This document shows positions 9,200 to 62,915 of a stretch of DNA of 64,000 nt, one piece after another. The notes under the pieces are model-generated. The model was not told where the DNA came from and did not search any database. It worked only from the letters and a program-made list of their open reading frames with translations. Within the stretch, counting starts at the first letter, position 1. Each line of letters opens with the position of its first letter. Source of the DNA: Sipunculus nudus (taxonomy: Eukaryota; Annelida; Sipuncula; Golfingiida; Sipunculidae); assembly GCA_026874595.1 (NCBI GenBank), contig CM049316.1, positions 59,653,676 through 59,717,675 on the forward strand. The letters run 5' to 3'. The position numbers and the translations under genes were made by a program.

Positions 9200-10465
9200 G
9201 GTTTTTAGCTCAGCTGACTGAAAGTAAACCTTGGTAAAGGAATGGCGCTTAGTCCGTCGTCCGTTCGTTATCAGGGCACAAATCTGTCAACCCTAGAAAC
9301 TTGTAATTTAATATCTAGATAGATAAATAAAAATATCCTAAGCAACCTGAACTTAAGTCACTGCGACCTATATCCTATGACCCGAATTATGGGACTCATA
9401 AGAACCCCGCCCCAAGAAAAATTAATAATTTGATACAAAACCTCCAGTATATTGATAATTAATGCATGGATTGCCATGAATATTGCCTTGAATATCGACA
9501 ATGAATAGTTTTGTAAGTTTTGGTGGCACCACCTGTATTTTTTTTAATTTTTATGATTTTTCTTCCCTGTTTTTGAGACCATCAAATGACAGCAATAATG
9601 TCAGTTTCTCAGATGTGGATTCATCAAGTGTCCTGACACTCGGTGTCTTTATTGATTATGATTGGTTTCTTCATTTCCTTAAGACTGATGGCATCACCTG
9701 TATTTTTTTCTATAATTTATGCATTTTCCCCTTTTTTGAGACTGCTTTATTATGGTGATACTATCAGATTCGCAACTCTGGTTTAATCGGTGGCTTGAAA
9801 CCTTGTGTGTATATTAGGGCCCCGCTTGAATAAGCGGATGCCCTATATTAAACACCATGTCGGTCCGTCTGTTCGTCTTTCTGTATGTCTGTCAAATTTG
9901 TTTCCTGATGTTTCCAGTTTGGATTGACATATGCATTTCAAAATTGACTTATATATGGTCAACCTCTAACGCAAGAACTCTTTTGATTTTTGGGTCATGA
10001 GGTCAAAGCTCAAGGTCACTGGGGCCCATCTGTCCACATATGTTTCCGTATGATAACTGATTTGGATTGACATTTGGATTTCAAACTTGACTTGTATATG
10101 GACCACCTCTAACGCAAGAACTCTATTGATATTTGGGTCATGAAGTCAAAGCTCAAGGTCACAGGACTCACCATCAGACATATTGTGGTTGTTTATGCGG
10201 AACTGTTCATCCCCCCCCCCCCCCCCCCCCCCATCTTCCAAATAATGATTACCTGACAATAGCGGAAGAAACATATGGATTTTGGGGTCACAAGGTCAAA
10301 GGTCAAGGTCACCGGGGAGATCTATCCACATATTAGTTTTCCAGATGAAAACTCTAGTTTGGGTAGACAGGTTGGCTTCAAACAGACCACAGTATCCATA
10401 TTTTGAAAAAACATATAAACATATCCTTATAGACAACTTCAGCTGAGCGTGGAGACCCATGGGTC
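9200..10465 (+). repeat. Long dispersed repeat A, copy 1
   Basis: In order: TAGCTCAGCTGACTGAAAGT; CGTCCGTTCGTTATCAGGGC; two GGCACCACCTGTATTTTTTT-like blocks each followed by a TTGAGACC/TTGAGACTG block; GGGCCCCGCTTGAATAAGCG; GTCGGTCCGTCTGTTCGTCT; and then tandem CTTGTATATGGACCACCTCT / GGTCATGARGTCAAAGCTCA modules to about 10330, ending near ACCCATGGGTCCCTCG. The same blocks occur inverted at 27.5-28.5 kb. No coding capacity, clear TIR or poly-A tail. The family is unrecognised. Confidence 0.7.
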
Positions 10466-10561: not shown

Positions 10562-10879
10562 TAGGGCTGTATCAATATACCAATATATCGATATTGATAC
10601 ATATCGATACTCCACATCGAAATGGTTATCGATACGCTATGCATGAGGTATTGTCGTATCGATGAAAAACAAGAACTGCTCACAATTACATATACAAATC
10701 ATACAACCCTAAGTAAACTTAAAAACTGAGTTTTTTTCAAGCTTAAGCTGGTGAAATTACGTTAGGAAATGCATAGGAAAATGAAGCGTATAGTCAATAC
10801 GTATCGTGTATCGATTTGACTGTGTATATCATAATAAGTATTGTACCTAAATAGGCTGACCGATACCCATGCAGCCCTT
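10562..10879. mobile_element. hAT-like MITE with perfect 8-bp target duplication
   Basis: 318 bases bounded by TAGGGCTGTAT and, inverted at the other end, AAGGGCTGCAT. It is flanked on both sides by the identical octamer TTGAAGAC (10554-10561 and 10880-10887). The interior is rich in TATCGATA/GTATCGAT motifs, with no coding capacity. The 8-base duplication and short TIR fit the hAT superfamily. A fragment similar to its right portion occurs at about 47034-47101, inside the 2-kb GTGTCG element. Confidence 0.82.
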
Positions 10880-27489: not shown

Positions 27490-28484
27490 TCAAACATGGG
27501 TTAGTTTGTAATCAGGAAACAAATACTAGTATGTGGACAGATGGCTCCTTGACTTTTGACCATGCAACCCAGAATAATTAAGGTTCTTTCCCTATTGGCA
27601 GGTCAGATTTATGTGCAAGATGGAAGGGTTTGGCTTAAAATGCATCCACAATCTTTCTGAAATGGTGGGTCCCTTGACCTTTGGTCTCATGACACCTACA
27701 TCTTACATTACTGGTGGGTCATATATAAGTCAAGATTGAAACCAATATATCAATCGAAACTAAAGTTGCCATCCGCAAAAAAATTTGACGGACATACAGA
27801 AAGACGAACAGACGAACGGACGGATGGACAGGGTGATTAAAATAGGGCATCTGCTAATTCAAGCAGTGCCCTAATAAACACACAAGGTTTCAGGACACAA
27901 ATGAAACGACAGTTGCGAATCTGATAGTATCAATATAATTTGGCAGTCTCAAAATAAAGGGAAAAATGCATCAAATAGAAAAAAAATACAGGTGGCGCTC
28001 CCAGTCTTCAGGACCTGAAGAATTCAATTATAATAAAAAAATTCACTGGGATTCAGTACAATGGGCGAAACTACAGCTGAGAAACTAACATAACTACAGT
28101 CTTTTGATGGTCTCAAATCAGAAAAAAAATCGTAACAATTACGAAAAAATACAGGTGGCGCCACGAGTTTTCGGGAACTGACAAAACTTGTCATGGTCAA
28201 TATTCAAGGCAAGATTCATGGCAATCCATGCATTAATTATCAGGATACCGGAGGTTATGTATCAATTTTTTAATTATTCTTGGGGTACTTACAAGCCCTA
28301 TAGCTCGGAGGATATAGGTCGCAGTGACCAGTGGGATTTATTATTAACCTACATGGCCATGCAGCAACAAGTTTCTAGGGTTAGCGGTTAAGATTTGTGC
28401 CCTGCTAACGGACAACCGGACGGACGACAGAAAAAGCGCCATTCCTATACCTCAGTTGACTTTCAGTCAGCTGAGCTAAAAACC
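27490..28484 (-). repeat. Long dispersed repeat A, copy 2 (inverted)
   Basis: Carries in reverse order the blocks of 9200-10465: GTATGTGGACAGATGGC, TTTGACGGACATACAGAAAG, TAGGGCATCTGCTAATTCAA, two ATACAGGTGGCGCYMC blocks, CCATGCATTAATTATCAGGA, GGACGGACGACAGAAAAAGC and TCAGTCAGCTGAGCTAAAAA. Colinearity over nearly 1 kb shows a single mobile or duplicated unit. Confidence 0.7.
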
Positions 28485-45061: not shown

Positions 45062-45482
45062 TTGCCTATATATATAAATTTCAACTTACTTGCAGAATTT
45101 ATTGTTTATTGCTTGTTTGTACATAAATGGATCACATACACACGTGAGTCTTTATATACCAATCACCTAGGATTTTTACAATTTGGAGTTAGGAGACCCA
45201 AATTCTTTACATATTGATTGGACGATATAACTGAATTTATCTAACCCAGAGCGTTTTATGGCAGAGTCGCCTGTTATAACCAGGACCTAGACTGGTACCC
45301 TGAGCTATTATAAAGTTGCCAACGCTTGACTTTAAAGCTTGAACTGAAAGAAAGCTCGAGGATAAATCATGAGTCCGTTTTCTTTTTCAATAGCTGGTGT
45401 TTATTTTTTAGTCGGTGTGACCGAAATAGCGCAGGGTACCAGTCTAGCGAAACTTAATCATGTATGTACGTGGAGTATTAAG

Positions 45483-47514
45483 GGGTGAACCCACCAAGGC
45501 CGACACGGATCTCGACACAGCGCGACGCAGGCCGACACAGAAATCAGGCGACACACACCGACACTTGGTTGTGTCGGTTTGTGTCGCCTAGCGTGTCGTG
45601 AAGTGTGTCGTGCAGCCAAAATAACAAACCAATTGAACGACACACCCGCGACACACATTGGGGTTCATGACACGGAGATTATCGCGTGTTGGCCGAAAGT
45701 TGACCGTTTTAGATTATCTGTTGCAAGTGTTTAGCAATAAAGCTATAGCCACTTATATTTTATATTTTGAATTTTAAGACATAAACAAGACAAAGGCTCT
45801 GATGACAATCGGGCGCGTTTGAGCGATACTCACATGAGCCCTGTTTTTCAGGAAATATGAGGGGGGCAATCCACCGAGTTGGGGCAAAAGCCCCGTTCAT
45901 GATAATGAGGACAGTATAGCCACCAGCCAGAATATAAAAAAACTTTCTCAATATCATTTTCCAACACATAATACGGTAAGTATAATTTGAGAATAAAAGT
46001 TATTTTTGCTTAGTTTTCATTAATTGTTTGAACATTCACGATATCATAAATTTCTTGTTATGAGATGCGCAATTGAAAGAGAATTGATATAAATATTAAG
46101 AAAAAAGAAACTGAAAATATGATCTCGAAATCGTTTAGTACAAAAGTACGCGTTTTATTCCCCTAAAAAGAGAAGGGGACACATGAAACTTTGTCCCCGT
46201 TATACTTTGTCCATTTCCCTATAAAGGGAGGGGGACATGCTGCCGCCACCCTAAACCCACCCCCACCCCCACCACGACCACGAGGCCCATGATTACTGAC
46301 GTTGCTCACGTCGATGACATCGATACTTTATATTAAATGTTGCTATCATTAAATTAAATATTTATTTATTTTTTAATTTTGTGATCACAGTAGGGCATGT
46401 ATATGGGTTAATAATTTTACCATTTTACCTTTACTTGAATCAAGTGTTAGCACAACAATTTCCCCAGGTGCTTATATACCGGCCAAAGCTCCGTTTGACT
46501 AATATTCTTTGAATGATCAATGCCTTAAGGGAGGGGTAAATGTTCAACAACTGAATACTATCATGACATGGAAAAAGCGTATGATTTTCCTGAACGAATA
46601 TAAATTAATGGTGGGAAAGGGGGAGTGCAAAGGGCTTAAACAAGATCGTTGTTTTAATTTTCAGTAGGCTTTACAGTAAATGAGGTTAAGGCAACGGGGT
46701 CTGGAAAAGTTTGTACTCCACATATAGCGTATTTCAAGCCTTCTATCAAACGACAAACATGGCTCATCCCGTGGTATGAGATTATATCCACCCTAAAGAG
46801 GAAGAGCAGCCCCTGCGGTTTTGCTCAGGTTTGTGTTTTGTTTTAAAGGACCTGCTTTAAAGGACCTGACACATAAAATAAAGCTTTTTTATCATTTTTT
46901 TTTAACTGATTTGGTGTTTTTTATTTATTCAATATCAAGTATAAATGCAGAATATAGTGAACATGCTGTTTATTAAAAAATAAGAAACATTATATATTCA
47001 GAATTTTTATGCAGAATTGATATACAAAGAAAAATGGAGCGTATCGTCAATACATATCGGATATCGAATTGAGTGTGCCTAAATAGGCAGACCGATACCC
47101 GGTCCAAGGCAGGACGGATGCAAGATAACAGAAAACTGTCTCCTGATTGGCTGGAAGTGATCTTGACATTGACCCACTCACTCCACGTAGTGCTGCGTGT
47201 CGGTATGTGCTGTGAAAAGTGCGTCGCACGACCAGTTCCACTGCACGATCCGTGTCGAGTTGTGTCGAGAAGAAACCGACGCAACCCGACACGCGTTTTC
47301 ATCGCACGACAAATCGAACATGTTCGATCGTGTCGCAAGGCCCGTGATGCAATGCCGACACGCTTCTTGTGTCGTGTGCTTCTCCACGATGTGTCGTGTG
47401 AGCTGGTCCACTGCCACGACACAGGCGGACGTCGCGACACACTGGACGTCATCTGTGTCGTAAAGCGTGTCGAGAGACGTGTCGGGACGCGTGTCGGCTT
47501 TGGTGGGTTCACCC
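45483..47514. mobile_element. 2.03-kb non-autonomous TIR DNA transposon with GTGTCG-rich subterminal arms
   Basis: The left end reads GGGTGAACCCACCAAGGCCG and the right end is its inverted complement with one mismatch over 24 bases. The flanks carry GAGTATTAA (45473-45481) and GAGTATGAA (47515-47523), a near-perfect 9-base target duplication. The left arm (about 170 bases) holds about 11 copies of GTGTCG/CGACAC, in both orientations. The right arm (about 330 bases) holds about 14. Such arrays usually are transposase-binding subterminal repeats. No transposase is visible in the interior; the open frames in the arms arise from the hexamer periodicity. The duplication length fits Mutator-like or Merlin-like elements, with hAT/KDZ also possible, but the superfamily is not assigned. 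Confidence 0.75.
47034..47101 (+). repeat. Fragment related to the right portion of the 10.6-kb hAT-like MITE
   Basis: Shares blocks with 10783-10868, including GCGTATMGTCAATACRTATC and CCTAAATAGGCWGACCGATA in the same order, with a 20-base gap between them. It lies just inside the right arm of the GTGTCG element, so it is either a nested remnant or a common module. Confidence 0.55.
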
Positions 47515-47529
47515 GAGTATGAAATGCTT

Positions 47530-57411: not shown

Positions 57412-58755
57412 TCAGAGAAAATGGATCCATTCGGTATCGGAATCGCGTGTGGGAACTGAGCGTGCATAACATTCTATTGTATAATTCTTGCCTCTGTTAT
57501 TGTCCCAGTACTCCTGACCGCTCACTGCAAATCTTATTGCTAATTCCAGCTTATTGCCGACACCAAAATACTTAGGTATGCCCAGCTGGAAGGAAAACCT
57601 GTCCGTTGCACCATCATTTGAATTGAGTACGTAACTAGCGCAAATATCTCTCGTGTTCATCCAGTTATCAGTTGTGTACCGTACAGTTACGTATTTGTGG
57701 AAGGCCACATTAGCAACACGTATTGTACCGGTAACAGTTAAAGATTTATCATCAATCATGCAGTTTTCTAGGCATACATACTCGGCCAAAACCCTCTTGA
57801 TAAAGTCAGGTTCAGCCCCGGGCTGCATGAAACTTGCAGTGAGGTACCTGTTACCTTCAGTGGCTTTAAACTCCTGAACCCCGGATTTTAGATCTTTAAC
57901 GGCAGAAGCGGGGATTTCTGGTGGGGCATCAAGATTGAGAATATGTCTAACAGATTCTAGGTCTAGTCCAAGGGCATCCGCGAATCGCACAGCTTTTTTC
58001 CTCCGCGGTGTTCCTGGTGGGGTTTTATAGGTTTTCAGAGATGAGCTCCGCCTGACCGGCTCTGCATGTAAATATTCAAACTCAGCGTCTTCAAAACCAC
58101 CACTTCCATATTTCTTAGGTTCGAGGTCCGGGCTGTTGGGCTGCGGGGGCCGCCCAGCAAATGTTTCTGGGGACAGTGCATCGATATTGGTAAGGGTGAG
58201 CATGACTGGGCTTTTCACTGGCTCCGAAGACTGTGACAGCTCAACGTCCGTTTGTTCATCATCGTCATACGTTTGTAAACTATTGCAGTCAATCGAACCG
58301 TCCAAATCACTGCATATTGAGCCAGTAGGGGTATTCACATCAGAATCGAATTGCTCACTAACTGTAGAAACCGAGGTATCTGTCATACGAGTGTAATCTT
58401 CAGAATAATTAGTGTCAGAATCGGATACTATACTCATCTGTCGCATCGCCTCGCATTCTGCCCGAGATGGTACGAAAGTGCTGTGAGAGTTCCTTTCAAC
58501 ACTTTCTGCGGTTCCATTACTTGCCCGTGCTGTCTGCATCCCGCCCCGTTTGCAGGTACACTTACAGGTAAGCCTGCTGGCTGTGGAAGCCCCAGTCCTG
58601 CTGGTGATGCTACAACAAGCACTGTTTTCTCTTCCTGGGCGCCTGCGCAAAAAAGCCTCCTGTAACTTGGCACAGTGTAATGCCGACGGGAAGTTACCAC
58701 AGTAGCTTAGATTTCGAGGCAGATACCTTACAATGTCGCCCTCTAGCTCCACCAT
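57412..58755 (-). CDS. PPP1R3: Protein phosphatase 1 regulatory subunit 3 family (glycogen-targeting subunit, CBM21)
   Basis: Role (known for the family): tethers the PP1 catalytic subunit to glycogen so that it dephosphorylates glycogen synthase and phosphorylase, favouring glycogen synthesis; acts at cytosolic glycogen particles. Seen: 447 residues uninterrupted in one exon. A Ser/Asp-rich, probably disordered stretch covers about residues 100-185. A basic, phosphorylatable stretch (RRSSS 235-239, TPPGTP 245-250) leads into the PP1-docking RVxF motif KKAVRF (253-258), followed by ADALGLDLESVRHIL. A CBM21 domain covers about 325-430: GTIRVANVAFHKYV starts at 343, TTDNW ends it near 365, and the substrate-binding motif WDNNRGKNYTI is at 417-427. 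Start: the frame stays open four more codons upstream through two TTG codons to a TAA at 58774-58776, but 58755 is the first ATG and has A at -3 and G at +4. Stop is TGA at 57412. Closest kin appear to be PPP1R3B/C/D and insect glycogen-binding subunits; the exact orthologue is unresolved. An upstream non-coding exon is possible. Confidence 0.95.
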   Translation of the reverse strand: MVELEGDIVRYLPRNLSYCGNFPSALHCAKLQEAFLRRRPGRENSACCSITSRTGASTASRLTCKCTCKRGGMQTARASNGTAESVERNSHSTFVPSRAECEAMRQMSIVSDSDTNYSEDYTRMTDTSVSTVSEQFDSDVNTPTGSICSDLDGSIDCNSLQTYDDDEQTDVELSQSSEPVKSPVMLTLTNIDALSPETFAGRPPQPNSPDLEPKKYGSGGFEDAEFEYLHAEPVRRSSSLKTYKTPPGTPRRKKAVRFADALGLDLESVRHILNLDAPPEIPASAVKDLKSGVQEFKATEGNRYLTASFMQPGAEPDFIKRVLAEYVCLENCMIDDKSLTVTGTIRVANVAFHKYVTVRYTTDNWMNTRDICASYVLNSNDGATDRFSFQLGIPKYFGVGNKLELAIRFAVSGQEYWDNNRGKNYTIECYARSVPTRDSDTEWIHFL

Positions 58756-58803
58756 GTTCAACAAATGTTCTGCTTAAATGACTGAGTTCACTATCCCTAC
58801 CCA

Positions 58804-62134: not shown

Positions 62135-62915
62135 TGCTTTATTTCTGGGGTGCTCAAACATACCCAGAAACTGAGAATATAGGTCACAGTGACCCAATTT
62201 CAGGTTTCTGTGGAGAACATTTGAGGAATTCTCAGGATGTCAAGTTAGAAGATTCTGGGTCCAATGGTTATGACTTGTGCCCTATTTTGGTATCATTTTC
62301 TCAATTATTCTATAAGCCCGATAGCATGGTGAATATGGGAAACAGAGATCTAATTTCAGGTGTCTGAAGAAAAATGTTTTGAGGAACTCCCAAGTTAAAA
62401 GATTCTAGGTCCAATGATTATGATTTGCGCCCTGCTTTTGATCAATTTTTTTTTATCAAAATAATTCTGGGGGTATTTATAAGCCCAAAAGCTCGGAGAA
62501 TATGGTTAACAGAGACCTAATTAAAGGTTTCCAAGGAGATTTTTCATGGAACTCCCTTGATGTCAAGTTAGAGTATTCCAGGTCCAATGGTTACAATTTG
62601 TGCCCTGTTAATAGACAACCACATCTTTGAAGGTATTAAAAAAAAAATAGAGAGAAAATGCGTACTAGAGCTTTTGTATCAAATTTTTAGTTATATTGGG
62701 GGTTCTTCTGAGCCCAGTAGCTCGCAGAATATGGGTAACAGAGACCTAATTTTAGGTTTCCAAGGAGTTTTTCCATAAACCTCCTAGCATGTCAAGTACG
62801 AAGATTCCGGGTCCAGCGGTTACGATTTGTGCCTAGTTAAAGTACAGACGGACGGACGCCGGGAAAAGAGTGATCGCTATAGCTCAGCTATAGTCAGCTG
62901 AGCTATAAATGGAAC
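62135..62915 (+). repeat. Four-fold tandem expansion of a repeat A end module
   Basis: About four units of 150-165 bases, each with AGCYCGVAGAATATGGGTAA-like, CAGAGACCTAATTTYAGGTT-like, CTCYYDGGATGTCAAGTTAG-like and GGTCCAATGGTTAYGATTTG-like blocks. They end in GACGGACGGACGCCGGG and TAGTCAGCTGAGCTATAAA. The single unit in repeat A copy 2 is at 28265-28410. Degenerate and non-coding. Confidence 0.65.

Follow-up and report, generated by a model that had tools for sequence, protein, structure and literature searches.

The element of about 2.03 kb that we describe here, found in a 64,000-nt stretch of the Sipunculus nudus genome (assembly GCA_026874595.1, contig CM049316.1, positions 59,653,676 to 59,717,675 of the forward strand; this whole stretch is hereafter the window), is very probably a non-autonomous member of a PIF/Harbinger family. 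The superfamily itself, which the first-pass annotation had left unassigned, is almost certainly PIF/Harbinger, since the copies of the family are flanked by a 3-bp TWA and longer elements with the same ends encode a DDE_Tnp_4 transposase.

Results

Ends and anatomy of the window copy

The left terminal inverted repeat (TIR), AGGGGTGAACCCACCAA, occupies positions 45481 to 45497 of the plus strand, and the right one, at positions 47500 to 47514 on the minus strand, matches it perfectly over 15 bases. The first-pass annotation had claimed 24-base TIRs starting at 45483. The pair is present where it was placed, with the segments 45483–45518 and 47479–47514 complementary at 32 of 36 positions and perfect over the outer 15 nt, but the true start is 45481, two bases further out. 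The TTA at 45478–45480 is the left copy of the target duplication, according to the rule obtained from 42 copies and an empty site (see below). At the right end of the window copy, GA is found where the outer CT is expected; CCC is followed directly by GAGTATG, and no matching right TTA was seen. The gapless score of the TIR pair was 52, compared with a best value of 37 in 20 dinucleotide shuffles; within the actual window sequence, higher scores were reached by five other inverted pairs. In the family as a whole the TIR comprises 17 nt, starts with AGGGGTGAACCC and runs on into the arm, being short, as in PIF/Harbinger; the end sequence shared among the copies is AGGGGTGAACCCACCAAR.

The left arm (45498–45654) contains 11 exact CGACAC/GTGTCG hexamers, mostly 10–12 bases apart, and the right arm (47197–47496) contains 14, of which the outermost four are exactly 12 bases apart. 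The earlier count of about 25 hexamers confined to the arms was therefore accurate: the element has exactly 25, with none in the AT-richer 1.5-kb core (45655–47196), which is common to the full-length family copies. The other 14 of the 39 hexamers in the window lie outside the element. From the end to the innermost hexamer, the left arm measures ~172 bases and the right arm ~318. As had been described, the arms are GC-rich (0.56 and 0.58, versus 0.37 in the core and 0.32–0.36 in the flanks). The outer 130 bases of the left arm fold better than shuffled sequences (z −4.6); those of the right arm do not (z −1.0).

The element is touched by 32 frames of 40 aa or more, and the 13 that were tested, nine of them in the core and four touching the right arm, gave no Pfam match over the cut-off; the weak matches below it include one to zf-CCCH with 17.6 bits and one to 7tm_2 with 13.7 bits. 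Rfam gave nothing at gathering scores. The earlier description as a mobile unit without a transposase holds as to its mobility and, for the frames tested, as to the lack of a recognisable transposase.

Within the core, positions 47019–47100 (plus strand) match part (window 10766–10868) of a separate hAT-like short repeat. By eye, this repeat is an element of ~315 bp at 10564–10877, with a TIR beginning TAGGGCTG and flanked on either side by the 8-bp sequence TTGAAGAC; part of it is likewise present in the core of at least one other copy of the family (L112). Directly upstream of the 2-kb element, a perfect 16-base inverted repeat (CTAGACTGGTACCCTG; 45287–45302 and 45432–45447, 161 bases end to end) is perhaps a second short TIR element, as judged by eye. 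A 452-aa open frame on the minus strand (57412–58770) carries a CBM_21 domain (E 1.8e-31) and likely encodes a glycogen-targeting phosphatase 1 regulatory subunit (PPP1R3), which fits an animal host. Ten other window frames gave no Pfam match over the cut-off.

Copies of the element in the genome

In the 1.43-Gb assembly, the TIR with at most one mismatch occurs 98 + 97 times (195), compared with 17 + 32 (49) for the reversed control. Among 100 of the 195 places that were listed, all of them exact, there are 32 +/− pairs, and 36 places stand alone; 24 of the 32 pairs span 1.9–2.2 kb and the rest 0.6–7.3 kb. All of the first 30 listed ends (L077–L106) are followed by one or more hexamers in the next 400 bases inward. 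The best 40 of 908 candidates scored include at least 31 full-length copies, counting the window copy, that cover at least 2,000 of 2,032 bases with 89–100% identity. A consensus was built from 34 copies, that is, the window copy and 33 of the 40 fetched loci; L107–L110 and L112–L114 were excluded for their odd length or structure. The individual copies depart by 2.0–6.4% from the majority sequence, which holds 24 hexamers. The first-pass annotation had named a lack of other copies, or similarity continuing past the ends, as evidence against a mobile family; there are many copies, and their similarity stops at the ends.

Some copies are rearranged or shortened. In L112 (401–1472) the right end is duplicated in inverted orientation, giving a palindrome of 1,072 bp, and L111 (401–959) is a 559-bp MITE-like derivative composed of the two arms. 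In L085 the left arm is followed by unrelated DNA, the longest frame of which has 83 aa. A diverged member of ~550 bp (L087, ~1501–2055), 74–80% identical to the arms and flanked by TTA-AG and CT-TTA, perhaps represents an older subfamily. Phage records gave no match, and 76 viral contigs with the TIR 15-mer were discarded as chance occurrences, as in none of them do the 200 bases inward contain more than one hexamer.

Target site duplication

The target duplication of the family is TWA, 3 bp. The near-perfect 9-base duplication reported earlier for the window copy exists as letters, GAGTATTAA(G) on the left and GAGTATGAA on the right (8/9 with one extra left base; chance 0.0004–0.0013), but not as a target duplication. 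In 42 copies, comparisons at lengths 8–10 and offsets 0–2 gave z <1, and a 3-bp TWA signal was found instead. The combinations with z >3 (offset 2, length 3, z 3.8; offset 1, length 5, z 3.5; offset 0, length 7, z 3.6) all correspond to a single register, TWA on TWA. The outer bases are AG/CT in 36 of the 42 copies, the window copy being among the six without them. Read towards the element from either side, the three bases next to AG/CT are T (40 of the 42 on the left and 39 on the right), A or T (39 on the left, with C in three, and all 42 on the right) and A (40 and 41, respectively). Identical 3-mers are present on both sides in 22 of the 36 AG/CT copies (14 TAA, 7 TTA, 1 TAC; permutation p 0.002). 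Given that TWA outside AG/CT is the sole positive register, we place the start of the TIR at AGGGGTGAACCC. In these comparisons an inner TIR served as the partner end of L109, and a neighbouring TIR as that of L113; L109 does not belong to the 36, and L113 agrees (TTA/TTA) under either pairing.

An empty site gives the same length. When the flanks of L109, which sits in a palindromic host repeat, were joined without the element and one TTA, the resulting sequence was found exactly (28/28) in L129, L091, L092 and L108, and with 3–4 mismatches in L155 and the window. The empty site has one TTA and the filled L109 site has two; these empty sites are other copies of the host repeat rather than the same locus lacking the element.

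The middle base differs in 8 of the 29 TWA/TWA pairs (TAA versus TTA in L114, L115, L119, L126, L157, L158, L160 and L165), more than expected at a divergence of 2–6%; one idea is gene conversion up to the last shared base. As for the window copy, its right junction reads CCC followed by GAGTATGAA (47515–47523) in place of CCC followed by CT-TWA, and resembles the left flank (45473–45482, GAGTATTAAG) at 8/9. Because the chance of such a match is only ~0.001, this junction may be the product of a repair that used the left flank. Evidence from many copies overrules a plausible-looking 9-bp duplication in a single one.

Longer elements with the same ends

Two longer elements, C3 (5,393 bp) and C12 (6,095 bp), have the TIRs and arms of the window copy, so the longer transposase-coding relatives that the first-pass annotation proposed to look for do exist. 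C3 was found from L101, where the right arm is followed by gene-like DNA. It has both TIRs, the far one with one mismatch; its arms hold eight hexamers each and its interior another three. Its flanks (TTA-AG and CT-TAA) represent a discordant duplication. Its right arm is 95% identical to that of the window copy over 205 bp and its left arm 79% over 257 bp. C12, which was read in four stretches, has an exact right TIR, a left TIR with two mismatches and flanks TAA-AG and CT-TAA; its right and left arms are 94.8% (349 bases) and 87.3% (259 bases) identical to those of the window copy, and its interior is 91% identical to that of C3 over 1.1 kb.

A 218-aa open piece in C3 matches DDE_Tnp_4 (83.9 bits, E 1.2e-23, cut-off 24.8), and a wider reading of this transposase (PF13359) reaches 95.7 bits with one stop inside the match. 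In C12 the corresponding piece is 89% identical. Used as a query, the C3 transposase gave two close matches among the best 150 of 312 candidates scored, namely itself and C12; within the same set, the next matches by score have 43% identity, with no more than 43% down to the 20th row and up to 53% in short lower pieces. A PDB search with the transposase piece gave no match. The best 150 of 701 PF13359 candidates, which do not include the C12 transposase, contain a single match at 10 kb or less from any of the 109 listed element places, with 0.23 expected.

Near the right arm of C3, an 88-aa piece matches positions 40–84 of MADF_DNA_bdg with 20.9 bits, under the cut-off of 22; this MADF gene lacks its first half and adjoins a truncated right arm. 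C12 contains two MADF pieces (PF10545), at model positions 12–37 (14.5 bits) and 41–77 (16.0 bits), both under the cut-off of 22. They lie in order on one strand in separate frames, ~190 bases apart, with a stop directly before the first; the gap is an intron or damage. No intact and certainly active partner was identified, C12 having been read in four stretches.

The core of the 2-kb family has no similarity to the interior of C3, and its similarity to the parts of C12 that were read is limited to 63 bases beside the right arm. As far as these elements were read, the family is therefore not a simple internal deletion of either.

Other long copies were discarded as partners. Several open frames of L107 (7.3 kb), by eye, are pieces of a LINE reverse transcriptase, and L108, L109 and L110 (5.6, 5.2 and 3.5 kb) contain insertions; no transposase frame was seen by eye in any of the four. 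The insertions of L109 and L110 consist of ~340-bp tandem units, and that of L108 is similar over its first 66 bases only. These units belong to a dispersed repeat with a palindromic end, GCTCAGCTGACT (L109 1202–4850, L110 1749–3289, and window 9200–9976, 27701–28484 and 62173–62909), which occurs as an insertion within copies of the 2-kb family and has also served that family as a target.

A heptamer motif in the arms

The hexamers occur in both orientations, as stated in the first-pass annotation; this holds for each arm of the window copy and also for those of C3 and C12. When all of them are read in one orientation, CGACAC is followed by a purine in 24 of the 25 sites of the window copy, which extends the motif to CGACACR; over 34 copies the seventh base is a purine in 711 of 743 motifs, counts that are not independent. 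The motif is exact and the bases between sites are nearly random. Motifs with one mismatch are close to background: per 100 bases, the two arms have 0.56 and 0.87 of them, the core has 0.73 and a 10-kb control has 0.56. In 32 of the 34 copies, positions 300–1650 have no hexamers.

The spacing of the sites in the left arm is significantly phased (0.2% of random placements did as well), with a best period of ~11.4 bases; in the right arm phasing was not significant (25%). The four mismatches of the window TIR pair all fall between motifs: none affects the 27 terminal-base or hexamer positions and four affect the other nine (p 0.002, for a split chosen after viewing the sequence). In the 34 copies, hexamer bases outside CpG depart from the consensus in 1.4% of cells, compared with 2.5% for arm spacers and 3.2% for the core, and the values at CpG positions are 3.4%, 4.7% and 6.7%, respectively; these differences are modest and the copies share history, so no p-value is given. 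The terminal 15 bases vary least (1.3%), yet the copies were picked by those same bases.

The first-pass annotation had explained the unequal arms by array expansion in the window copy. Both the inequality and 24 hexamers are already present in the consensus of the 34 copies, indicating that they are inherited family traits.

Discussion

The 2-kb copies are likely to have been mobilised in trans by the transposase lineage of C3 and C12. The first-pass annotation had argued that a partner elsewhere must recognise the hexamer; longer elements with the same arms and a transposase exist, and recognition of the hexamer is predicted from analogy. The CGACACR arrays would most simply be sites for the partner MADF protein, because of the analogy to the Myb-like protein of Harbinger3_DR, and to this prediction we assign an even chance; the lower variability of the hexamers among the 34 copies lends it some support. 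The MADF protein of the longer elements would bind CGACACR repeatedly in each arm and, once bound, would load the transposase and pair the two ends; the transposase would then cut beside AG/CT and insert the element at TWA. Non-coding 2-kb copies, having kept both arms and TIRs, would spread in trans. More tentatively, the arms may constitute a landing platform with multiple sites, in which MADF reads CGACACR in both orientations, at about one site per helical turn in the left arm, and some 24 sites allow a cooperative recognition of the ends that replaces long unique TIRs; the non-coding family would have acquired a foreign core between two such arms and would be mobilised through the arms alone. 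We consider this extended proposal possible, and somewhat less probable than not.

Other readings of the arms leave the superfamily in place. The hexamer arrays could be a functionless tandem expansion, like the growth of a microsatellite, in a PIF/Harbinger element. Subterminal tandem arrays of Harbinger elements can differ greatly in number, for instance in Medicago MtPH-A6-4 (PMC2213677), and the four right-arm sites spaced at exactly 12 bases would fit such growth; against it, the seventh base is almost always a purine among nearly random inter-site bases, the hexamers vary less than the arm spacers, and each arm of the window copy, of C3 and of C12 retains sites in either orientation. This makes expansion unlikely, though it deserves more weight than a role of the arrays in regulation rather than in end pairing, which we find improbable. 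According to the latter, a host or element factor would use the arrays as an enhancer, promoter or anti-silencing site, much as VANC proteins bind short arrayed motifs in the non-coding DNA of transposable elements and counter silencing (PMC5735166). The sites of the present family, however, lie in the two terminal arms and adjoin the TIRs on their inner side, persist in copies that have no recognised genes and are missing from positions 300–1650 in nearly all copies.

The anatomy of the window copy also resembles that of a non-autonomous MULE of the Phantom/Foldback kind, such as Muta1 of mosquito. Muta1 ends in an imperfect palindrome of 10 bp in which bases 5 and 6 do not pair, carries subterminal repeats of 12 bp and makes 8–9-bp duplications (PMC5225508). 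The window copy has GGGTGAACCC, a 12-base spacing in places and the 9-base near-match, and the genome contains PF10551 transposases (131 matches among the best 150 of 252 candidates scored). Nevertheless, a 4+2+4 palindrome is found at 2.2% of window positions, and the 109 listed element places (100 of the 195 ends were listed) have none of the 131 matches at a distance of 40 kb or less. The flanks of the 42 copies, the 3-bp empty site and the DDE_Tnp_4 of the longer elements with the same arms rule out MULE as the superfamily, so that a likeness in anatomy is all that stands and the probability of this reading is very small. Smaller still, and close to nil, is that of chance inverted repeats in simple-sequence DNA: the window is indeed rich in simple and dispersed repeats, but dispersed copies share the same ends, arms and core, and there is an empty site and a duplication. 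Apart from this question, 34 of the 131 MULE matches share a score of 47.6 bits and a 607-aa open frame, which has the appearance of a recent expansion of an intact MULE family unrelated to the 2-kb element.

We therefore maintain the assignment to PIF/Harbinger. Among the papers listed on Harbinger subterminal and MADF systems, no title or abstract opening describes this S. nudus family (the repeat databases Repbase and Dfam lie outside that search), and a literature search for CGACAC-type subterminal motifs found none. As far as the literature shows, this is a new family, as had been suspected, and it belongs to a known superfamily; the density and mixed orientation of its 7-bp site are somewhat unusual. 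A single animal genome thus offers a motif-rich Harbinger family with a non-coding user and two transposase-bearing relatives, in which it can be tested directly whether the MADF protein reads the motif and whether site number matters. Seen more broadly, the family extends the diversity of PIF/Harbinger in an ordinary way.

Comparison with known systems

PIF/Harbinger elements are characterised by TTA/TAA duplications, TIRs of 14–25 bp and subterminal repeat arrays (PMC2213677), and need two genes, one for the transposase and another for a Myb/SANT/MADF protein (PMC9710019, PMC9179366). The Myb-like protein of zebrafish Harbinger3_DR reportedly recognises a subterminal motif of 9 bp (PMC9710019). 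The present family resembles that element in the 3-bp TWA, the short TIR and the presence of DDE_Tnp_4 and MADF-like pieces (the latter below the cut-off) in longer elements with the same ends, and differs in its 7-bp motif, which is present some 24 times and in both orientations, in its GC-rich arms of ~170 and ~320 bases and in a TIR that begins AGGGGTGAACCC. A Harbinger-derived MADF protein of fish was detected by ChIP on its own TIR-containing promoter, but EMSA showed no binding to the candidate motif in that promoter (PMC11893794), a result that counts against an easy reading of MADF on the heptamer. The arrays of MtPH-A6-4 are also different, consisting of 60-bp units with a triplicated AAACNNCTTATT (PMC2213677), whereas here there are heptamers with free spacers and mixed orientation. 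The Spy elements, Harbinger relatives without a duplication as defined in the title of a paper, are not matched, since the empty site shows 3 bp.

mPing is non-coding, flanked by TWA and a few hundred bases long. Tourist-type MITEs such as mPing rely for their movement on a system of two proteins acting in trans (PMC2836001); the present element differs from them in its 2.0 kb, its long arrayed arms and a core that, as far as was read, does not come from the longer elements.

The TnpA motif of En/Spm, CCGACACTCTTA, contains CGACAC. Maize En/Spm (CACTA) has subterminal arrays of a 12-bp site recognised by TNPA, of which the TCTTA part is shown in the source (PMC2613891). Here the TIR is not CACTA and the partner encodes DDE_Tnp_4, so the shared letters are probably a coincidence. 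Muta1 and the Phantom/Foldback MULEs are alike in their terminal 10-bp palindrome and 12-bp subterminal repeats (PMC5225508) and differ in duplication length and transposase, which makes this a likeness of build and not of membership. Composite repeat TIRs are known from Tm1, Muta1 and Tetris (PMC3169594, PMC5225508, PMC4079207), and Galileo has multiple transposase sites in long repetitive TIRs (PMC3688188). If the arms do act as a landing platform, they would represent a Harbinger counterpart, reached independently, of the solutions of Foldback/Galileo and En/Spm.
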